Under the pieces are notes generated by a model that saw only the letters and a list, made by a program, of their open reading frames with translations, was not told where the DNA came from and searched no databases. Of a stretch of DNA of 50,007 bases, positions 26,893-38,175 are shown piece by piece (positions within the stretch are counted from its first letter, which is position 1; each line of letters opens with the position of its first letter). The position numbers and the translations under genes are program-made. The stretch lies in the NCBI GenBank assembly GCA_029883265.1, contig JAOUJM010000008.1, forward strand, positions 1 to 50,007. Reading direction: 5' to 3'. The stretch is from Gammaproteobacteria bacterium. Lineage in GTDB: Bacteria > Pseudomonadota > Gammaproteobacteria > S012-40.

Positions 26893-29800
26893 ATGTTTCA
26901 AGGACGAACCGGGGGTAGTCGTTGGCAAATTTGTGTGCGTAATACAAAGTTATTAGTAGCTTTGTTATTATGCTGCGCGTTTTTGCTTGGTGCGACAAAC
27001 ACCTTGGCCGCAACTAGCGATCTTCGCCAAGCATTGAGTGAGCATAATGCAAATATGCTTACGGGCGCGCATGCGGAATTGGCCTGTGAAGCCTGTCATC
27101 AACAATTACCCGCGACAAAATTGAATCCCGCTTGCGAAACCTGTCATCAAGCTTCGCAAAAACATTTGGCCTTAAAAACACAAGTCTGTGCGGATTGTCA
27201 TGCCCCCTCAGGATGGGGTCTGGCGCAAATTGATCACAGTTTATTAAAGCAGACCTGTGTAAGTTGCCATGATAATGCTCAACTCGGTGCTAAACCCATT
27301 ATTCATATTCCTAGCAGTGATGCATGTGAACAATGCCATGTTACGTCTACCTGGGCGAGTGTATTACCATTCGAACACAGCCAAACGGCACAAGTTTGTG
27401 TGAGTTGTCATGATGGTCAGTTGCTAAACGCAAAACCAGCTAAACATATTGCCAGCAATAATGATTGTAATAGCTGCCATTACACCGATAATTGGTCTGT
27501 ACTAGCGCGCATGGATCACCAAGCGGTTAAGGGCGCATGTAATACTTGTCATAATGGCAGTCCCTATACCGGTTTGCCTGCGCTACACATTAATGTTTCG
27601 GGGCAAGATTGCGAACAATGTCATTTAACCCAAGCCTGGTCCCCTGCACAACTGGGTATTGCGCAACTTAATGTTAGTGATTTGCAACTATTAAAAAGTA
27701 CCGGTGTTAGTGCGCGTTTATTTGATCACGGTACAATCGTGAATAACTGTACCCAGTGTCACGGCGTTACGGCTATTGGCAAGCCCAATGGGCACGTGGC
27801 ATCAACCGATAATTGTGAATTTTGTCATTCAGTACGTACCTGGCTACCCGTTCGTCGAGTCGATCATTCGCAAGTTATCGGTATTTGCACTGATTGTCAT
27901 AATGGTACGTTGGCGGCCATTGCGGTGGGTAAACCGCCAGGGCATATTCCGAGTACGGACAATTGCAATGCTTGTCACTCGCCTACGTCGTGGTTACCTG
28001 TGCAAACCGTGGATCATAGTGAGGTGATTGGTGGTTGTTATGATTGTCATAATGGCGTCATCAGTCGAGGCAAAAAACAAGGGCATATAGCAACAACCAA
28101 TAGTTGCAGCGCTTGTCATGTGGTGTTGGCATTTTTACCCGTTAGAGTTGTGGATCACGCTCAAGTGATTGGTAGTTGTGTGAGTTGTCATGATGGAATT
28201 ATTGCTGTGGGCAAATCACAAACACATATTCCTAGTTCTGATTTATGTGGTTCTTGTCACTTAACCATATCCTGGCGTGCAGGTATTGCTTTTGATCATA
28301 GTAATGCGATTGGTAGCTGCGTCAGCTGCCACGATGGTTTGACTTCTACGGGAAAACATCGCACTCATATTGCCAGTTCTGATGAATGCCAGTTCTGTCA
28401 TAATAATCTAGTATGGCGCGATATTATTGCTGTCGATCATCAACATGTGATTGGTGAATGTATTAGCTGCCACAATGGCATCGTGGCGATTGGTAAAAAC
28501 AAAGGCCATGTTCCCACCTCAGATAAATGTGATGCTTGTCATATTACTGCGATTTGGAAACCCGTGACGAATGTTGATCATAATGAAGTGTTCGGTGTAT
28601 GTAGCGCTTGTCATAATAACCGTCTAGCCGTAGGTAAAAGTATTGATCATATCGCAACGAATTTGGAATGTGATTTATGTCATACCGTGCGAACCTGGAT
28701 AGGTGTATCGATCGCACAAATTCATGAAGGTGTGAGTGGTGATTGTTTCAGCTGTCATAACGGCGTTTCAGCCACCGGTAAAAATCGTACGCATATTGTC
28801 AGTAGTGATGTCTGTGAGGCGTGTCATATTGTTTCTAATTGGTTATTGGTCTCGGTTGATCATAGCCAAGTCGGTGATATATGTTTTGAATGCCACAATG
28901 GTTTAGTTGCCGGAGGAAAAAACTTCGGTCATATCCCCAGTACTAACGTCTGTGAAGCCTGCCATACAAATGTAACCTGGAAACCTGTGACCGGTGTTGA
29001 CCACGCGCAAGTAACCGGTGCTTGCTTTGGTTGTCATGATGGTTCGATTGCGCGCGCGAAAAATCCGGATGTGCATATTCCCACAAGCAATGAATGCGAA
29101 GCCTGTCATTCAACCGTAGTTTGGATTCCTGCGCGTTTTGTTGATCACACAGAAGTCATCGGTGAGTGTATTGCTTGTCATGATGGTGGATTTGCTCGTG
29201 GTGTGAATTTAACGCATATTAATTCGAGCAATTTGTGTGGTAGTTGTCATACCACATTTGCGTGGACACCAGTCATGCGGGTTGATCATTCACAAGTTCC
29301 GACTGATTGTGTGTCCTGTCATAACGGTTCCATCGCTTCAGGTAAAAGTGCGAATCATATTCCTACCTCGGATTTGTGTGGTGATTGTCATAGCACAAAA
29401 GCCTGGACGGCATCGATTCAATTTGATCATAGTCAGGTCACTTCTTCCTGTGTGGTGTGTCATAACGGTGTATCCGCTTCAGCGATTCCGCCTTATCATA
29501 TTCCAGTAACCGAAGAGTGCGGTGCTTGTCATGCGACCAGTGCTTGGCGACCTGTATTGCAAGTGGATCACAATCAAGTAGTAGGCGCCTGTGAAGTTTG
29601 TCATAACGGTACTCGTGCCGTGGGCAAAAGCCAAAAACATATAGCTACACTGGATCAATGTGGTGCTTGTCACGAAGCGTTTCCTGTGCCTTGGACGTCG
29701 CCACTTGCTGTGGATCACACCTTGGTTTTGGGTAAATGTTTTTCCTGTCACGACGGCGTAGTCGCTATGACAAAATCATCATCACATATTCCCACCTCAA

Positions 29801-31914
29801 ATGATTGCGAGGCTTGCCATGTCGCGTCCCCCGTTCCTTGGACAACTGTTGCAGCAGTGGATCATAGTCAAGTGCAAGGTGTATGCGTGACCTGTCATAA
29901 TAATAATCCTTGGATTGGTAAAACCCCTGATCATATTAATACCAGCGATGTGTGTGAAGCTTGTCATTCGACCGTGGTTTGGGCGCCCGCTATTGTGGTG
30001 GATCATGTAGAAGTGAATGGTGCTTGTAATACTTGTCATAATGGCAATCCTTGGATAGGGAAGAATCCTGAGCATATTCTTTCAAGTGACGCATGCGAAA
30101 CCTGTCACTCGACAAACACATTTGCACCTGCGATTAAAGTCGATCACACACAAGTGCAAGGTGTGTGTGTGAGTTGCCACAATAACAATCCATGGGTAGG
30201 AAAACACGCCACACATATTAATAGTTCGGATGAATGTCAGGCCTGCCACTCCCAGGGAAATAATTGGGTACCGATTTACGTGGACCATACTGAGGTCATT
30301 GGATTGGATAATTGTGGCGCGAATTGTCATAACGGCGTTATTGCACAAGGCAAAAACGCTGGCCATATTTTAAGTTCTGAACAATGCGGGGCTTGTCATT
30401 CCACTGAAACCTGGGCACCGCATGTGTTAGTCGATCATGATCATGTGCAAGGCTTATGCATTAGCTGCCATAACAATAATCCTTGGATAGGAAAAAGTGG
30501 GCAACACATTAATACCACTGATGATTGTGAGAAGTGTCATTCCACCGTGCGCTGGATGCCGGCGATTTTAGTTGATCATGATTTTGTTGTCGGTGAATGC
30601 GTGAGTTGTCACAATAGCAAAATTGCCAATGGTAAATCATCGAATCATCCACCTACCTCTGATGTCTGTCAGGCCTGTCATACCCCCGCCGGCTGGGTGC
30701 CTGTAGTGGTGGTTGATCATGCCGAGGTTATTGGTAATTGCGCCGGTTGTCATGGCGGTGGTTTTGCACAATCAGATAAGGGTCCCTTGCACATAAATAG
30801 TTCTGAATTGTGCGATAACTGTCATTCAACCAATGCTTGGACGCCAGCGATCACTGTTGATCATACTCAAGTGATTGGTGTGTGCGTGAGCTGTCATGAT
30901 GGAACTACTTGGGTTGGAAAATCCAGTACGCATATTGCGAGTTCGGAAATATGTGAGCTTTGTCATTCGACGAATACCTTTGTGCCAGCGATTAAAGTTG
31001 ATCACAGTCAAGTGCAAGGTGTGTGTGTGAGCTGTCATGATGGTTCGCCTGCCACACCTAAACACGCGACTCATATATCGAGTTCAGATGAATGTGATGC
31101 CTGTCATTCGACTAATTCATGGGTACCCGTGGTGGTGGTTGATCATTTGTTTGTGATTGGTGAATGTATTCAATGTCATGCAGCGGGTTCACCAAATAGG
31201 GGTAAAAGTAGTGCGCACGTCAACACAACCGACGACTGTAAATTCTGTCATTCAACAACGTTTTGGGAACCAACAATACGGGTAGACCATAATTATGTTT
31301 TAGGTGCGTGTTTTGACTGTCATAACAATAGTTTGGTCTCGGGTAAAAGTCCGAGTCATTTGAATACCACGAATTTTTGCGAGGCTTGCCATGCGCCATT
31401 ATCGTGGTTCCAGGTCATCTTTATGGATCATAACGAAGTCAATGGTACCTGCGTTTCATGTCACAATAATCAGTTGGTGCCGGGTAAAACCCAAACTCAT
31501 ATACCAACCACCGATAGTTGCGAAACCTGTCATGCAACAACGTTCTGGGCTCCGGTTATTCGTATGGATCACAACCAAGTGACCGCAAGTTGTATTACTT
31601 GTCATAATAATCAAATTACTACGGGTAAGCACACACAACATATAAGGACTAGTGATATTTGTGACGCCTGTCATGTGACGACAACTTGGGTGCCGTTTAT
31701 TGTGGATCATAATGAAGTCGTTGGTATTTGCGAAAGTTGTCACTTACCTCCACCTCCTTCACACTCGGCGCTGAATATTACTGGTGGTTGTGATGGCTGT
31801 CATACCACCACCACCTGGATACCGGCTATCCGGCCGCTGCCAACTACCCCATTAGGCGTGACTCCATTGGATGTCATTAATCCAAGCGGAGTGGATTTAT
31901 TTATTCGCCATTAA
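26893..31914 (+). CDS. Giant secreted multiheme c-type cytochrome (66 CXXCH plus one CX3CH)
   Basis: 1673 residues. Sec signal peptide with core LLVALLLCCAFLLGATNTLA (mature start near residue 40). My hand count gives 66 CXXCH motifs from Cys65 to the motif starting at Cys1633, plus CGANCH (CX3CH) at residues 1141-1146: 67 possible covalent hemes, about one per 24 residues. Most lie in a two-heme repeat of about 50 residues: HIxSSDxCxxCHxTxxW, then PxxxVDHxxVxGxC, then xxCHNGxxAxGK. The His of HI and of VDH could be the distal ligands, giving bis-His hemes. No membrane anchor, porin domain or lipobox is visible, so the product is probably periplasmic or secreted. Such chains work as electron wires or stores. 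The C-terminal 35 residues lack hemes. Not recognised as a named cytochrome; c-type maturation genes are not in the window. Confidence 0.9.
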   Translation: MFQGRTGGSRWQICVRNTKLLVALLLCCAFLLGATNTLAATSDLRQALSEHNANMLTGAHAELACEACHQQLPATKLNPACETCHQASQKHLALKTQVCADCHAPSGWGLAQIDHSLLKQTCVSCHDNAQLGAKPIIHIPSSDACEQCHVTSTWASVLPFEHSQTAQVCVSCHDGQLLNAKPAKHIASNNDCNSCHYTDNWSVLARMDHQAVKGACNTCHNGSPYTGLPALHINVSGQDCEQCHLTQAWSPAQLGIAQLNVSDLQLLKSTGVSARLFDHGTIVNNCTQCHGVTAIGKPNGHVASTDNCEFCHSVRTWLPVRRVDHSQVIGICTDCHNGTLAAIAVGKPPGHIPSTDNCNACHSPTSWLPVQTVDHSEVIGGCYDCHNGVISRGKKQGHIATTNSCSACHVVLAFLPVRVVDHAQVIGSCVSCHDGIIAVGKSQTHIPSSDLCGSCHLTISWRAGIAFDHSNAIGSCVSCHDGLTSTGKHRTHIASSDECQFCHNNLVWRDIIAVDHQHVIGECISCHNGIVAIGKNKGHVPTSDKCDACHITAIWKPVTNVDHNEVFGVCSACHNNRLAVGKSIDHIATNLECDLCHTVRTWIGVSIAQIHEGVSGDCFSCHNGVSATGKNRTHIVSSDVCEACHIVSNWLLVSVDHSQVGDICFECHNGLVAGGKNFGHIPSTNVCEACHTNVTWKPVTGVDHAQVTGACFGCHDGSIARAKNPDVHIPTSNECEACHSTVVWIPARFVDHTEVIGECIACHDGGFARGVNLTHINSSNLCGSCHTTFAWTPVMRVDHSQVPTDCVSCHNGSIASGKSANHIPTSDLCGDCHSTKAWTASIQFDHSQVTSSCVVCHNGVSASAIPPYHIPVTEECGACHATSAWRPVLQVDHNQVVGACEVCHNGTRAVGKSQKHIATLDQCGACHEAFPVPWTSPLAVDHTLVLGKCFSCHDGVVAMTKSSSHIPTSNDCEACHVASPVPWTTVAAVDHSQVQGVCVTCHNNNPWIGKTPDHINTSDVCEACHSTVVWAPAIVVDHVEVNGACNTCHNGNPWIGKNPEHILSSDACETCHSTNTFAPAIKVDHTQVQGVCVSCHNNNPWVGKHATHINSSDECQACHSQGNNWVPIYVDHTEVIGLDNCGANCHNGVIAQGKNAGHILSSEQCGACHSTETWAPHVLVDHDHVQGLCISCHNNNPWIGKSGQHINTTDDCEKCHSTVRWMPAILVDHDFVVGECVSCHNSKIANGKSSNHPPTSDVCQACHTPAGWVPVVVVDHAEVIGNCAGCHGGGFAQSDKGPLHINSSELCDNCHSTNAWTPAITVDHTQVIGVCVSCHDGTTWVGKSSTHIASSEICELCHSTNTFVPAIKVDHSQVQGVCVSCHDGSPATPKHATHISSSDECDACHSTNSWVPVVVVDHLFVIGECIQCHAAGSPNRGKSSAHVNTTDDCKFCHSTTFWEPTIRVDHNYVLGACFDCHNNSLVSGKSPSHLNTTNFCEACHAPLSWFQVIFMDHNEVNGTCVSCHNNQLVPGKTQTHIPTTDSCETCHATTFWAPVIRMDHNQVTASCITCHNNQITTGKHTQHIRTSDICDACHVTTTWVPFIVDHNEVVGICESCHLPPPPSHSALNITGGCDGCHTTTTWIPAIRPLPTTPLGVTPLDVINPSGVDLFIRH
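27085..31803 (+). repeat. Tandem coding repeats of the two-heme unit
   Basis: From the first to the last heme motif the DNA is a degenerate tandem array with a period of about 150 bases (one two-heme unit), some 33 units. Most copies have drifted, but two stretches, 30094-30249 and 30952-31107, are equally long (156 bases) and encode almost the same protein (STNTFxPAIKVDHxQVQGV core), suggesting internal duplication. Units near 29890-30510 share an unusual NNNPWIGK or NGNPWIGK linker in place of the common NGxxAxGK. Confidence 0.85.
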
Positions 31915-31975: not shown

Positions 31976-34834
31976 TTGAGTCAGTTCTACACTAAATTCA
32001 AAACAATCAAGGTTTTGTTTCCCCGTGGGAGAAGGATTTTGTTACGTGGGCTTATCGGCATCGGATGCTTGATTATCTGTTCATTTGCGGTACAAGCAAG
32101 TGACCCGCTTATTAAAATTGGCGTGCTAGCACATCGAGGCAAAGAAAATGTCAGCGATCGCTGGACTCAGACCGCAAAATATCTCAGTGAGAAAATACCT
32201 GGGTTCCAATTTCAAATATTCCCTCTCGATTTACAAGAGATGAATACCGCCGTGGCATTAAGCCAAGTGGATTTTGTTTTAACCAATCCTAGTCATTATG
32301 TGAGTCTAGAAGTGCGAAACGGTATTAGCCGTATTGCGACGCTTAAGCGTAACGAAGAAATGAATTTGCATAATCTTTTTACCGCCGTCATTTTTACACG
32401 AGCCGATCATCCAAAAATTGAAACTTTAGAAGATGCGAAAGGTAAACATTTTATTGCGGTTAATGATCAGGCATTTGGTGGCTATCAAATGGCTTGGCTT
32501 GAATTTAAACGCAGAAATATTGATATCAAGCAGGATTTTAGTCGAGTGACATTTAGTGGTTACCCGCAGGATAAAGTCGTATATGCGATCAAGAACGGAT
32601 TGGCGGATGTCGGTACGGTGCGTGCTCGAACCTTGGCGCAAATGATTAAAGAAGGTTTGGTTAAAGCAAGTGATTTTCGCATTCTGGGTAGTCGCCATGT
32701 GGCTGGTTTTCCGTTTGTGCATAGCACAGACTTATATCCCGAATGGCCTTTAAGCAAATTAAGCCACACTAAAACCGGTTTGGCCGAACAAGTCGCTGCC
32801 GCATTAATGAATATGCCCTTCGATCATCCAGCCGCACGTTCCGCTGGTTTAGCCGGCTGGACTGTACCCATGGACTATAAACCAGTGCATGAAATGTTGC
32901 GTGAATTAGGCGTCGGTCCTTATGCCTATAAACGGGAAATCAGTTTGGTGCAGGTTTGGCGCAAATATAAAGTTTGGGTCTTATTGGGGCTGACAGTTTT
33001 AATCGCTTTAAGTGTTATTGCGCTTCTATTGAAGAATATGAATAAACGTCTTGCGACCGCCAAGATAAGTTTAGAAGCAGAAATCGAACATCGTAAACAA
33101 GCCGAGCAGGAATTATTTGAAACAAATGAAAAAGCATTGGTGGTTTTGTCTTCAATTAGTAATGCGGTCATTAGTACCAACCCACAGGGTTTAGTAACCT
33201 ATGTCAATCCTGTTGCGCAAAAATTCATTGGTGATCATGTTCGAGCGTTGGTAGCCCTCAGTTTGTCAGACCTATTCACATTTGTTGATAGTCGCACGGA
33301 AGAAGAAATCAATGACCCTGTTGCCGAATGTATTGGCGCGAATTCCACCTTGCATTATGAAAACTGGTTAGTTGCAATCAATCGACAAGGCAGGGAAATT
33401 GAAGTTGAACTTAGTGTGTCGCCCATGCGCGATCAAGTCGGTAAAATTGTGGGTACGGTTTTGGTGATGCAAGACGTTACCGAAATGAAAAAATTACAAC
33501 AACAAATGCAATACCAAGCGCACCATGACTTTCTCACGGGTTTATTAAATCGACATGCGTTTGAACAATACTTAGCAAGTGCTTTGGTTAACGCACATGA
33601 GTTGCGTCAGGATCATGCCTTGCTTTATATGGACTTGGATCGTTTTAAACTAGTCAATGATAGTTGTGGGCATGCGGCAGGTGATGCGTTGTTAAAAGAA
33701 ATTACCGCCGAAATGCAAACCGTGATTTCAAAAGATGACGTATTTGCGCGCCTGGGCGGTGATGAGTTTGCGGTTCTATTATGTGATTGTGATTTAGATA
33801 ATGCCAGTCAGGTTGCAGAGCGCATTCGTTATGTCGTGGAGTCATTTCGTTTTGTTTGGGAACAAAATACGTTTGATCTTGGCGTGAGCATTGGAGTGAT
33901 GGCGCTTACCCGGGAAAACGACACGATAAACGAAGTGCTAAGTACGGCTGATAATGCGTGTTATATTGCCAAAGAACGTGGGCGCAATAAAGTTTATGTG
34001 TATTCACCGGGCGACCGAGTAATTGCGCGTCGTTATGGTGAAGTGCAGTGGATGCATCAAATACGTGATGCCTTGTTGAATAATCGTTTCTATTTATATG
34101 CGCAACCCATTCAAGCACTCAATTCAGATGCAGCACCCCAGGTGCATTGGGAGTTGCTGGTGCGTTTACGTCACGAAAACGGGAGCTTGATTGCACCAAA
34201 AGAGTTTATTCCTGCGGCAGAGCGTTACCATCAAATGCCCGCATTGGATCGTTGGGTGACTGAACACGCAATTCAACTATTAAGCGAGCATGATGTTGCG
34301 CAGTCAAATAAATTGCGTTGTTTTATTAATCTCTCAGGGCAGACGTTGAGTGACGGTCAGTTTTTACGCTTTGCTATTGATACTATTTTGCGTTATGGCG
34401 TGGAACCCGGTTCGTTGGTATTTGAAGTTACAGAAACGGCAGCAATTGCTAATTTCCAAAAAGCGGCGCGTTTGATTTCAGTGCTGCGGGAAATGGGTTG
34501 TCGTTTTGCGCTGGATGATTTTGGTACCGGCTTGAGTTCGTTTGCCTACCTAAAACAATTGCCAGTGGATTATATAAAAATAGATGGTTCGTTTATCCAA
34601 CACTTGGTGGAAGATGAGGTCGCTTGTGCAATAGCGCAATCGATTTCTGATATTAGTCACACCATGGGTGTACTTTGTATTGCAGAAACCGTAGAAAATG
34701 AAGCCGTGTTACAAAAAGTTCGGCAGATTGGGTTGGATTACGCACAAGGTTTTTGCATTGCGCAACCCGTACCGCTAGAGGTTGCAGTTAGTGAGCTGGC
34801 CCAAGCTGAGCATGATATGGCGGAAGAGGCCTGA
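31976..34834 (+). CDS. Membrane cyclic-di-GMP protein: PhnD-like sensor, PAS, GGDEF and EAL domains
   Basis: 952 residues. A TTG at 31976 is the only practical start because a stop lies eight codons upstream; a later TTG near 32009 is an alternative. Order: signal/anchor (about residues 20-41), periplasmic PhnD-type solute-binding domain (about 45-310; IKIGVLAHRGKE, DFVLTNPSHYVSL), transmembrane helix (about 330-352), coiled segment, PAS domain (about 380-500), GGDEF (RLGGDEFAVL, near 592) and EAL (WELLVRLR near 724, DDFGTG near 846, KIDGSF, ETVENE). GGDEF is intact; EAL reads ELL but the metal-binding Glu is kept, so both synthesis and hydrolysis of c-di-GMP are possible. PhnD-like domains also sense oxyanions, as in TtrS. 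It lies 61 bases after the giant cytochrome and may share its transcript. Confidence 0.88.
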   Translation: MSQFYTKFKTIKVLFPRGRRILLRGLIGIGCLIICSFAVQASDPLIKIGVLAHRGKENVSDRWTQTAKYLSEKIPGFQFQIFPLDLQEMNTAVALSQVDFVLTNPSHYVSLEVRNGISRIATLKRNEEMNLHNLFTAVIFTRADHPKIETLEDAKGKHFIAVNDQAFGGYQMAWLEFKRRNIDIKQDFSRVTFSGYPQDKVVYAIKNGLADVGTVRARTLAQMIKEGLVKASDFRILGSRHVAGFPFVHSTDLYPEWPLSKLSHTKTGLAEQVAAALMNMPFDHPAARSAGLAGWTVPMDYKPVHEMLRELGVGPYAYKREISLVQVWRKYKVWVLLGLTVLIALSVIALLLKNMNKRLATAKISLEAEIEHRKQAEQELFETNEKALVVLSSISNAVISTNPQGLVTYVNPVAQKFIGDHVRALVALSLSDLFTFVDSRTEEEINDPVAECIGANSTLHYENWLVAINRQGREIEVELSVSPMRDQVGKIVGTVLVMQDVTEMKKLQQQMQYQAHHDFLTGLLNRHAFEQYLASALVNAHELRQDHALLYMDLDRFKLVNDSCGHAAGDALLKEITAEMQTVISKDDVFARLGGDEFAVLLCDCDLDNASQVAERIRYVVESFRFVWEQNTFDLGVSIGVMALTRENDTINEVLSTADNACYIAKERGRNKVYVYSPGDRVIARRYGEVQWMHQIRDALLNNRFYLYAQPIQALNSDAAPQVHWELLVRLRHENGSLIAPKEFIPAAERYHQMPALDRWVTEHAIQLLSEHDVAQSNKLRCFINLSGQTLSDGQFLRFAIDTILRYGVEPGSLVFEVTETAAIANFQKAARLISVLREMGCRFALDDFGTGLSSFAYLKQLPVDYIKIDGSFIQHLVEDEVACAIAQSISDISHTMGVLCIAETVENEAVLQKVRQIGLDYAQGFCIAQPVPLEVAVSELAQAEHDMAEEA

Positions 34835-34971
34835 GTTTTATAATTCCCTCACAATTTTAATTTTCATTGATAATGTATTTAGACTTTTAAAAATCAAACA
34901 TAAATAAAGTTTTGATTAAAGCTGTCGACACCTTTTTTGCGTGCTGTTTGAATTCAAAAAAGGAAGTGGAG

Positions 34972-35658
34972 ATGGCAACACAAACCAACTTGATTCTTAA
35001 TGCCAAAGGCGGCTCGGGAAAAAGCACCTTAGCAACTAATTTGGCAAGTTTTTATGCGTGTTGGGGCTATTCAGTGGCCATTGCGGATTTTGATCCTCAA
35101 GCATCAAGCAATACTTGGCTGAAAATGCGACCCGAGACAAAACCTCATGTGAGTCAAGTCTATGTGGATTTACAAAACCCTTCTTTAAATGTATTTCAAG
35201 ATTATTTAATTCTCGATGTGCCTTCGGGTTTGCGTGGCGAAGCACTAATCAATATGATGGCCCGTGCCGATCGAGTTTTGATTCCTGTGTTGCCTTCCCC
35301 CATGGATATTCGCGCCTGTGGTTATTTTATTCATGAAATTTTAAAGTCAGAACAATATCAAAAAAATCCGGTTGCCTTTGCCGTAGTGGCGAATCGTGTT
35401 AAACAACACACCTTGGCTTATCGCAGTTTGGAGAAATTTTTAGGCCAATTGGATATTCCTTTTATAACCACATTACGTGACACACAAAACTATATTCGTG
35501 CGGCGGCCTTAGGCTTGGGAATTTTTGACATGCCGATTTATTCTGTGGCTGAGGATTTGGAGCAGTGGGAGCCCATTCTCACTTGGTTAAATAATGGTGA
35601 AGGCATTTTGCCGCCGAAGGCTGATTCACCTGCGGCGGACTTGTTGAGTTTTGTTTAG
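34972..35658 (+). CDS. Orphan ParA/MinD-family ATPase
   Basis: 228 residues from ATG 34972, preceded by AAAGGAAGTGGAG; a TTG at 34912 would add 20 unlikely residues. Deviant Walker A NAKGGSGKST (residues 10-19), Walker A' region ADFDPQASSNTWLKM, Walker B YLILDVPSG. Members position DNA, chemoreceptor arrays, carboxysomes or other cargo along membranes or nucleoid. No ParB-like partner or centromere-like repeat is adjacent, so chromosome or plasmid segregation is unlikely. The neighbours are a c-di-GMP protein and cytochromes, which would fit placement of an envelope complex, but this is speculation. Confidence 0.85.
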   Translation: MATQTNLILNAKGGSGKSTLATNLASFYACWGYSVAIADFDPQASSNTWLKMRPETKPHVSQVYVDLQNPSLNVFQDYLILDVPSGLRGEALINMMARADRVLIPVLPSPMDIRACGYFIHEILKSEQYQKNPVAFAVVANRVKQHTLAYRSLEKFLGQLDIPFITTLRDTQNYIRAAALGLGIFDMPIYSVAEDLEQWEPILTWLNNGEGILPPKADSPAADLLSFV

Positions 35659-37500
35659 CTAAGGCGTCGGTGTAATTAAGGAATCTATAATCGATTGGGA
35701 AATTGTTCGTGCAGGATACCAACTGCTAACACTGTGGCAGTGACTGCATTGAGTGGTGTCTTCATTGTGCTTTTGCTGATACCACGCATCGCTTGAAACA
35801 CTTCGATCGTCCACATGGCAATCCATACATGTTTGGCATGCGCTGCCACCACAGTCATTGCTTGCGCTATAGCGCGCGTTTTCTACATGCGTTAGGGTCT
35901 CAATCGGTTCTTGTTTGACAATAAAAAAGAAAGCATTTGCATCATTATCGGCGATCGAAACGATACTTCTGCTACTGCCATTAATTGCTAATATTTTGGT
36001 ATTGGTTTTGTCAGGCGTCGCACTCATGAGATTTTTTCCAGCGATGTTGGTAAAAATGCTGGTATTAATAATTTGATCACTGGCGCAACTGGCATCAATC
36101 AGTGTCACCAGTTCTTTGATATTGGGCAGTCGCCATTCTGTATAACTACTCGCTAGTTCCGTTGAGATAGTGGCCAAGCCTGTGGTGGCGCTGCCTGTTG
36201 AACAGCTTGCGTCAGACAAACCTAAGGGGCATTTGCGCCAGACAAGCTGAGTATGCAGATCAGTAATCTCGCCAGTGCTTGTGTCCACACTATAACGCGA
36301 ATCACTGATCAAAGCGCTGCTACTGCAGTTGCTACTAAGCGCGTCAACCGCACTGAAACTATGTCCACGAACCAAGCGTAAACCGTTAGTCGTTGCACCA
36401 TCAACGCGTGAATGGTCAGGATCATTTCCACTAAAGTCGATAATCCCACGGTCACTGTTTTCATTATTGGTTTGTTTGTAATCACCGCTATCGGCATACC
36501 AGAAACTGGTGTTTGCATCCGCATTGGGAAAGAAATATCGGCTTAAACCATTAAGCGAGTCAGTTGTTGATTGAAAATATAAGCTCATCCATTCACTCAA
36601 GGTGGGCATGCGCCAATCGCTAAAACCACAAAGTCGTTTCTGATTCAGTTCATTAATATGTGCTTGGATCTCGCTCCAGGTATAAGTGCTGTTGTCGACT
36701 GGTTCATCTGTTTCAAAATGTTTGACCAGCCGTTCCCAAGTTAAACCCGTATGATTATCGCTCACGCAATTCCAAATCTCAGTATTGCTTTTCGGGTCTA
36801 TGATCGCAATGGATAAACCGTTGGCATTAATGCGCGAAAAATCAAACGAGGCTGGACCACGTCCGCTTTTTTGCAAGCGTGCTTGAACTGCTAGGGCGTC
36901 GCGTCCGTATTTGGAATCCTGGTAAGCAAGTCCAGTGCTATCGCTAGCGTCACAAAAGTCTAGTGCGTCTTCGGCACAGTTAAAAACACTGCTATCATTT
37001 AAATGCGTTGTGTAATCGTTATCACGTATGGCAATGCGTAAAATATTTTGAGCGCTGGGTAATACATCGCTTGGGGTTAAATGAATCTCCAAGTCTTCAT
37101 CGCTTTCACCAATTTCCGCATCGTCAATCAAGCTTAGTAGTAAGGTCTGTGTTTGTTCACCGATCGCAAAATCAATGGTTTCGTTTTCAGTAATCGGTGT
37201 GGTTCCATCACTGTGGGTCAACTTAAAGTCAACATCGACAGTGGCGCTGGATAAGACATATTGCCACTGGATTTGGGTTGCGGCTTCTGCTGGTTTGTTC
37301 AAGGCGATGGTAATGCTGACTCGTTGGCCTTCTTTGAGCAGGGTGAACGCTGCTCGACTGCTGTTGATGGCAGAGGCGCTGGCGTCGTGACTTAGGCCAA
37401 CTCGGATAGGGCCGTCCGATGATTTTGGTTCGTGGAAGCAGGCGCTAAAAAAAAGGGCGACAATGAGCCCGCTAATAATATGCCCAAACTGTTTCGCCAT
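35659..37500 (-). CDS. Lipoprotein with Calx-beta and DUF1566 domains and a diheme C-terminal tail
   Basis: 613 residues from ATG 37500, chosen for the GAGG site eight bases upstream; a TTG at 37518 is less likely. Signal MAKQFGHIISGLIVALFFSAC with lipobox FSAC, then a Calx-beta-like domain (about residues 40-160; LLSLIDDAEIGESDEDLEIHL), two DUF1566/Lcl-type regions marked by DWRMPTLSEW and EWRLPNIKEL, and a C-terminal tail with CMDCH and CQCSHCH-type heme sites: CQTCMDCHVDD and CSHCHSVSSWYPA. The last motif resembles the unit CxxCHSTxxWxPA of the giant cytochrome. It is convergent with parA; the stop codons abut. Likely an outer-membrane surface lipoprotein that docks or exchanges electrons with a multiheme partner; inferred. 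Confidence 0.75.
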   Translation of the reverse strand: MAKQFGHIISGLIVALFFSACFHEPKSSDGPIRVGLSHDASASAINSSRAAFTLLKEGQRVSITIALNKPAEAATQIQWQYVLSSATVDVDFKLTHSDGTTPITENETIDFAIGEQTQTLLLSLIDDAEIGESDEDLEIHLTPSDVLPSAQNILRIAIRDNDYTTHLNDSSVFNCAEDALDFCDASDSTGLAYQDSKYGRDALAVQARLQKSGRGPASFDFSRINANGLSIAIIDPKSNTEIWNCVSDNHTGLTWERLVKHFETDEPVDNSTYTWSEIQAHINELNQKRLCGFSDWRMPTLSEWMSLYFQSTTDSLNGLSRYFFPNADANTSFWYADSGDYKQTNNENSDRGIIDFSGNDPDHSRVDGATTNGLRLVRGHSFSAVDALSSNCSSSALISDSRYSVDTSTGEITDLHTQLVWRKCPLGLSDASCSTGSATTGLATISTELASSYTEWRLPNIKELVTLIDASCASDQIINTSIFTNIAGKNLMSATPDKTNTKILAINGSSRSIVSIADNDANAFFFIVKQEPIETLTHVENARYSASNDCGGSACQTCMDCHVDDRSVSSDAWYQQKHNEDTTQCSHCHSVSSWYPARTISQSIIDSLITPTP

Positions 37501-37876
37501 ATTGCCTGCCTCATTCAAAATTATTAATTAAATTCAACCAGATAGACTGGGGTATTTGTATCAGGCTGCAAGTATATCATGACCACGGTTTTGGATAAAT
37601 TTCCTTGATTGGTAGGGGTTTGGGTTCGAGCACGAACTTTGCTAATATTATTTGGGTATGGATAAAAATTGTCACTAACTGACAAACATTCAGCTATGTT
37701 TAAGTTTAATTACATAAACTGTTGAATGTAAAGTGGTATTAGGTAGTGCCGTACAGGCTCTTAATGACCAACTTTGTCAGCTAGGCATTTGATGTCTATG
37801 CTGTATTCATGCCTCACATGAGGCGCTCTTTGCTCGCTTGCGAGCCTTGACTACTTATCCATGAAAGGAGACTAAC
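37501..37876. other. Non-coding region upstream of the Gly/Met ORF, with hairpins
   Basis: No gene seen on either strand. It must hold the promoter of the minus-strand diheme lipoprotein and probably one for the plus-strand Gly/Met unit, but no convincing -35/-10 pair was found. A dyad TTGTCA-ctaac-TGACAA lies at 37669-37685. Two small hairpins, GCCTC-acat-GAGGC (37811-37824) and GCTCG-cttg-CGAGC (37832-37845), precede the ribosome binding site. Confidence 0.4.
37669..37685. promoter_or_regulatory. Perfect dyad, possible operator
   Basis: TTGTCA and TGACAA form a perfect 6-bp inverted repeat with a five-base centre, in the gap between the divergent diheme lipoprotein and the Gly/Met ORF. It could bind a dimeric regulator; no regulator gene is adjacent and short dyads arise by chance. 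Confidence 0.25.
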
Positions 37877-37972
37877 ATGGGCATGGGTGGAATGGGTGGC
37901 GGCGGCATGGGCGGCGGAATGGGCGGTATGGGTGGTGGTGGCATGGGAGGCGGAATGGGCGGTGGCATGTAA
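37877..37972 (+). CDS. 31-residue microprotein made only of glycine and methionine
   Basis: A complete small ORF: 22 Gly and 9 Met and no other residue, arranged as runs of two to four Gly separated by single Met. AAAGGAG (37864-37870) lies six bases before the ATG, one of the strongest ribosome binding sites in the window, and the stop is TAA. Codon choice is mixed (GGC, GGT, GGA), so it is not a simple nucleotide repeat. Two hairpins precede it and an intrinsic terminator follows about 175 bases downstream. Methionine-rich peptides can bind Cu(I) or heme iron through thioethers, and GGM repeats end GroEL, but no function is assigned. It may instead be a leader peptide or chance ORF in an RNA gene. 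Confidence 0.6.
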   Translation: MGMGGMGGGGMGGGMGGMGGGGMGGGMGGGM

Positions 37973-38061: not shown

Positions 38062-38146
38062 TGAAGGGAAAAGGTAAAAAAAGGACAGGGTTATCCATAC
38101 TGGTCATGCAAGCTGTTTATTGCCGGTGATACACCGAAACGACCAG

Positions 38147-38175
38147 GGGGTACGAGGTTTCTCGTACCCCTTTTT
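38147..38175 (+). terminator. Strong intrinsic terminator of the Gly/Met unit
   Basis: A perfect 10-bp stem, GGGGTACGAG (38147-38156) with CTCGTACCCC (38161-38170), closes a four-base loop and is followed by five T residues. It separates the Gly/Met unit from the ABC exporter. Confidence 0.9.

Follow-up and report, generated by a model that had tools for sequence, protein, structure and literature searches.

The minus-strand gene at 35659–37500 of the window (the whole 50,007-nucleotide stretch of gammaproteobacterial DNA analysed here) encodes a predicted lipoprotein in which a Calx-beta-like domain is followed by two Lcl_C/DUF1566 domains—of types that elsewhere in the host's family usually belong to two adjacent genes—and then by a short C-terminal tail, which carries two CxxCH motifs and resembles the units of giant multiheme cytochromes. 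Fusions of DUF1566 to heme modules recur in other genomes. We tentatively interpret the protein as an outer-membrane redox adhesin; a ‘long’ and a ‘short’ partner fused together, with a c-type diheme module that would link them to electron transfer. The features of the region, with lipoprotein residues numbered on the 619-amino-acid reading (TTG at 37518), are:

26893–31914, plus strand: giant cytochrome of 1673 amino acids with 66 CxxCH motifs, part of the lipoprotein's context
34912–35658, plus strand: ParA/CbiA-like ATPase, convergent with the lipoprotein gene, the two stops abutting with no gap
35659–37500, minus strand: lipoprotein gene; 613 amino acids from the ATG at 37500, or 619 from an in-frame TTG at 37518; stop at 35659
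35734–35748, minus strand: heme motif 2, CSHCH (residues 591–595), with H-x6 upstream and x4-W-x-P-A downstream
35815–35829, minus strand: heme motif 1, CMDCH (residues 564–568), with no H-x6 upstream
35965–36270, minus strand: Lcl_C/DUF1566 domain 2 (PF07603; residues ~417–518), of the type found in ‘short’ partner proteins
36367–36768, minus strand: Lcl_C/DUF1566 domain 1 (PF07603; residues ~251–384), of the type found in ‘long’ partner proteins
37015–37281, minus strand: Calx-beta-like domain (residues 80–168), a profile match of 27.2 bits spanning residues 82–168
37438–37500, minus strand: signal peptide and lipobox LFFSAC, identified by eye, with predicted acylated Cys27 (codon 37438–37440) and Phe at +2

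Of the two candidate start codons we prefer the ATG at 37500, which is preceded by GAGGCAGG, a good ribosome site. The lipobox has Phe at –3, an unusual residue at that position, whilst the Phe at +2 predicts sorting to the outer membrane on the basis of the Lol rule known from E. coli. The gene put forward in the initial annotation is confirmed, and its product, read there as a lipid-anchored protein with adhesive-type modules, is supported as a predicted one. On the other strand, an ORF of 31 codons, rich in Gly and Met and with an AAGGAG site, is seen at 37877–37972, with a strong terminator-like hairpin downstream of it at 38145–38172.

The lipoprotein matches PF07603 in two stretches, with 120.1 bits against a gathering cut-off of 34.9 (E = 8e-35). 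The Calx-beta-like domain was detected with a profile built from a different Calx-beta protein encoded in the window; a Pfam scan at E ≤ 0.01 gave no Calx-beta match in the lipoprotein itself, and PF03160 (Calx-beta) is matched by 14 of its 28 aligned relatives. Besides Lcl_C, searches of Pfam, NCBIfam, PHROGs and the PDB returned only sub-cut-off matches and a very weak cytochrome c3, and a single-sequence AlphaFold model was uninformative (mean pLDDT 34).

Lcl_C is present in all 13 genomes of the host's family that were searched, and DUF1566 genes there usually come as adjacent heme-free pairs, one long (often with Calx-beta) and one short. At the loci examined we counted 37 adjacent same-strand pairs, having excluded any with an ORF below 140 amino acids; in a few of these the long/short assignment is not clear-cut, and in some the order is reversed. 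In a tree of DUF1566 domains (those below 60 amino acids removed, and duplicate or contained ORFs likewise removed from the ORF counts), domain 1 of the lipoprotein clusters with all 28 long domains, nine short domains and three from two-domain proteins (support 0.978), and domain 2 belongs to a clade with 38 members, 35 of them short (support 0.745); a larger tree likewise places them with the long and short kinds. With one domain of each kind in that order, the lipoprotein is therefore a fused pair plus a tail. The heme tail itself appears, from sequence comparison, to have been added rather than to be ancestral. In our first set, assembled before sampling was widened, CxxCH was absent from 104 of the 105 distinct DUF1566 sequences (whole ORFs or fragments), the window lipoprotein being the sole exception, and a heme-free two-domain DUF1566 protein of 624 amino acids is encoded in another genome (G033). 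Scans of genome contigs and of viral contigs with the lipoprotein as query gave no match.

The two heme motifs of the tail start 27 residues apart, rather than the 33 first claimed. The background frequency of CxxCH is about 1.4e-4 per residue (13 motifs, including the lipoprotein's two, in 243 ORFs of its own genome with fewer than three motifs), and two within the last 60 residues of the lipoprotein therefore exceed it. Two CxxCH motifs in a predicted exported protein mark this as a putative c-type cytochrome, and His 544, 568, 584, 593 and 595 are compatible, in sequence, with two bis-His hemes. Two extra cysteines, Cys556 and Cys561, lie just upstream of CMDCH, making an alternative metal or disulfide role for the tail possible. 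The nanowire_3heme model (TIGR04257) finds no match in the lipoprotein, which has the motifs for two hemes and not three. Among the genomes searched, this diheme form occurs in one only: with the tail as query, a second copy was absent from 274 and from 398 genomes, and the matches inspected were multiheme cytochromes or a few frames free of heme motifs.

The tail had also been said to follow the pattern of the giant cytochrome's units closely, and this proves correct in part. Motif 2 has all four features of H-x6-CxxCH-x4-W-x-P-A, as do six of the 66 motifs of the neighbouring giant (W or F accepted); motif 1, on the other hand, lacks the H-x6, and a step of 27 residues is found at none of the giant's 65 motif steps, 55 of which are 23 or 24 residues long, such that the regular 23/24 spacing with H-x6 at each motif is not seen in the tail. 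When the tail was shuffled 1000 times with CxxCH kept fixed, and the best scores against sets of units compared, its similarity was reached by 37 shuffles for the neighbouring giant, by one for 280 units of its own genome, and by four for all 2106 units (the last set including L040–L045, which were found by searching with the tail; the own-genome set is free of them). The score of the tail with an HMM of regular giant half-units was matched by 28 of 2000 shuffles, and the same HMM gave the whole lipoprotein 8.5 bits, about that of an ordinary 21-heme cytochrome. Ranking 2210 diheme segments against the tail placed giant-type units at the top: first a 26-spaced unit in the giant of another genome (G046; score 91), then one in a 43-heme protein on contig C506 of the host genome (score 90). 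The idea that the tail is exclusively a c554/DmsE-type diheme, which first came from the spacing of 27 and a W-x4-H, was dropped after this ranking; c554-type units also beat the shuffles, but that set is biased, its members having been chosen through BLAST searches with the tail. The tail thus shares the general unit style of the host genome's cytochromes, resembling giant units strongly within the own-genome set and weakly in the neighbour.

To widen the sample, we took the Lcl_C loci that scored best across 369 genomes of the class, and added 20 stretches chosen mostly for long frames. In this selected sample, whose counts are not a rate, CxxCH occurs in 6 of 172 distinct DUF1566 ORFs, from six genomes in five families: four have triheme tails (three other families), one has a different diheme tail, and the sixth is the window lipoprotein. 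In each of the six, the domain that precedes the heme module lies on the short side of a split in the tree (support 0.803), the other side holding 39 of 41 long and 14 of 96 short domains. The triheme proteins (G098 and G221, of one genus, G072 and G165) are mutual nearest neighbours in the tree, and three motifs are kept in all four. Their tails exceed the nanowire_3heme NCBIfam cut-off in L236 and L234, the two scanned, and that of L229 exceeds the Pfam cut-off for Cytochrome_C7. With the G165 protein (L236) as query, 83 of 369 genomes matched at E ≤ 1e-12, most of the matches listed covering the heme part or the DUF1566 part only; matches over the full length came from G165 itself, G098 and G221, whilst G072 matched in two segments of a single frame. 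By sequence, then, the triheme tails resemble a widespread stand-alone triheme protein. The remaining diheme tail belongs to a short DUF1566 protein of G154 whose gene adjoins a long DUF1566 gene, and was covered by no other match in 369 genomes at E ≤ 1e-25; G741, of the same genus, matched over the DUF1566 part only. Measured by distance in the tree, the heme-free protein closest to the triheme group is a short DUF1566 of G002. Its gene lies beside genes for a SoxA/TsdA-type monoheme cytochrome and a Tat-type metallophosphoesterase-like protein (L172), and short DUF1566 genes have the same neighbours in G004 (L169) and G010 (L170), and partly in G048 (L171).

Our best reading of these comparisons is that DUF1566–cytochrome fusions probably arose at least three times independently, the window lipoprotein being one instance; the wider idea of a DUF1566 surface module combined with a cytochrome gains support from the independent fusions in other genomes, which suggest that this adhesion module is in some cases linked to electron-transfer chains. 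A bolder generalisation, that DUF1566 repeatedly serves as an adhesion module tied to redox chains, its short form being joined, by fusion or neighbourhood, to at least three kinds of c-type cytochrome in several lineages so as to link the electron-transfer chain to an adhesion target, we regard as doubtful, if worth stating.

In its own lineage, the window lipoprotein is the smallest case of a habit of equipping surface modules with heme tails. The host genome encodes RCC1-propeller proteins with 4 and 20 CxxCH (C102, locus L049), a lipoprotein-like protein with 14 (C147, L050) and another with 32 and a DUF7282 domain (C506), and contig C5 of G003 (L113) carries a tandem run of three similar surface-module/heme proteins, each with between 10 and 14. 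At L049, L050 and L113, RCC1-propeller or other non-heme regions are joined to giant-type heme units placed C-terminally or mid-protein. Large multiheme proteins are found on at least seven other contigs of the host genome, and three nanowire_3heme-type triheme genes lie close together on C148 (L099). We also observed a recurring cluster of a giant cytochrome, a 21-heme cytochrome of ~530–565 amino acids, large exported proteins and a ~450-amino-acid 4Fe-4S/FAD pyridine-nucleotide oxidoreductase-like protein, at L048 (own C506), L059 (G046), L063 (G029), L116 (Amphritea pacifica) and L118 (a Deltaproteobacteria MAG); domains were scanned for L048 only, the other loci being judged by shared sequence stretches.

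In the mechanism that we propose, a long partner (lipoprotein, Calx-beta, DUF1566) and a short one (secreted, DUF1566) would have become fused and a c-type diheme module added. In this protein, presumably exposed at the cell surface, the Calx-beta part would serve as a stalk, and the two DUF1566 domains together would form a head that binds glycans or surfaces; by analogy with Legionella Lcl, for whose DUF1566 domain the available text of PMC11162425 gives carbohydrate recognition and/or trimer formation as proposed roles, the head may bind glycan, host or matrix. The tail, its hemes presumably attached, could exchange electrons with the multiheme cytochromes of the host genome (the putative partners, with the direction of electron flow likewise presumptive), and the cytochrome chain would thereby be tethered to the target of the head: polysaccharide, matrix, mineral or neighbouring cell. 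Several observations weigh against this mechanism: the host genome gave no match to the MtrB/PioB porin (PF11854) by which an Mtr/Pio-type conduit to the surface would be recognised, the diheme form occurs in one of the genomes searched, the extra Cys556 and Cys561 allow another role for the tail, and no cytochrome gene adjoins the lipoprotein gene on its own strand.

The lipid anchor in the sequence would also suit a periplasm-facing relay on the outer membrane's inner leaflet, which would pass electrons between cytochromes of the periplasm and a complex in that membrane, its DUF1566 domains serving only in assembly (oligomerisation). That DUF1566 may promote trimers (PMC11162425, in the portion available) and that triheme nanowire_3heme cytochromes are present in the host genome both accord with such a relay; we nevertheless consider it unlikely, given the surface-protein modules of some DUF1566 relatives (of 28, four with fn3, two with LapA, one with a cadherin-type and one with a PKD-type module) and given that no conduit gene was seen nearby. 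Another reading is that the fused pair recently acquired a cytochrome fragment and that the tail is a functionless relic, as its occurrence in one genome, the missing H-x6 of its first motif and its modest likeness to giant units might suggest; but both CxxCH motifs, the candidate distal His584 and the open frame are intact, and comparable fusions exist in other families with their motifs retained in every triheme member, so that we think this improbable.

The initial annotation had instead assigned the lipoprotein to the heme chain of the neighbouring giant. The orthologue of that giant in G003 (50–54% identity, exactly 66 motifs, SohB-like neighbour kept) has no DUF1566 gene in its 20-kb stretch. 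Giant matches at E ≤ 1e-20 were found in 15 of 56 genomes, and in 7 of 13 of the host's family; at E ≤ 1e-10 there were none in the six remaining family genomes or the five others with heme-tailed DUF1566 (0 of 11, with the same query in the 56-genome search as positive control). A scan of genome contigs with the giant gave 14 loci, none with an ORF having both CxxCH and the DUF1566-like W[RK]xP. Frequent occurrence of such lipoproteins without a multiheme partner or without heme motifs had been named as contrary to the assignment, and this is largely what the heme-free majority of DUF1566 ORFs and the giant-free genomes present. Immediately past the giant gene, by 61 bases and on the same strand, a PhnD-like binding domain is fused to PAS-GGDEF-EAL (31976–34834). 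That the lipoprotein is devoted to the 66-heme cytochrome, anchoring it and giving or taking electrons at the end of its chain, is the least probable of these readings: the two genes share an 11-kb neighbourhood and the motif 2 pattern, with the similarity noted above, but they lie on opposite strands, the lipoprotein gene converging on the ParA-like one, the G003 stretch has the giant and no DUF1566 gene, five genomes have heme-tailed DUF1566 and no giant match, the spacing differs, and the closest matches to the tail are in the G046 and own C506 giants.

Research on extracellular electron transfer has yet to settle how cytochrome chains are kept in contact with minerals, matrix or partner cells. 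Were the redox-adhesin reading true, a binding domain with a built-in heme tail would be a direct and testable answer to cytochrome tethering, and would suggest a function for the common DUF1566 domain, the general role of which is called unclear in the available text of PMC11162425.

In the open-licence literature we found no description of a DUF1566–cytochrome fusion, the DUF1566 papers that mention cytochrome concerning, by their titles and the starts of their abstracts, Leptospira and ice-binding; nor did we find anything there on RCC1 together with multiheme proteins. The likeness to known Lcl_C/DUF1566 proteins (the C-terminal domain of Legionella Lcl, the Lsa25-like proteins of Leptospira) lies in the two PF07603 stretches over the cut-off, whereas Lcl is trimeric and has a collagen-like stalk, heme going unmentioned in the portion of PMC11162425 available, and the window lipoprotein has a Calx-beta-like domain and a diheme tail. 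The triheme fusions of G098, G221, G072 and G165 are alike in placing a C-terminal c-heme module after a short-type DUF1566, but have three hemes in a different, c(7)-type module, one DUF1566 and no Calx-beta. In G154 a diheme module again follows the short type, with the long partner adjacent; there, however, the two genes are unfused, and the tail is different and longer, with a spacing of 34. The giant units of the lineage (the 66-heme neighbour, own C506, G046) share H-x6-CxxCH-x4-W-x-P-A with the tail, which differs in having only two hemes, a spacing of 27 and no upstream His at motif 1. The available part of PMC9012536 describes multiheme cytochromes of ANME that contain S-layer or pectin-lyase-like domains; these resemble the window lipoprotein in that c-type hemes are combined with a module related to surfaces or sugars, whilst being archaeal, with many hemes and other modules. 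The combination of a surface module with a heme module is of a known kind, and its DUF1566/Calx-beta version appears to be new.
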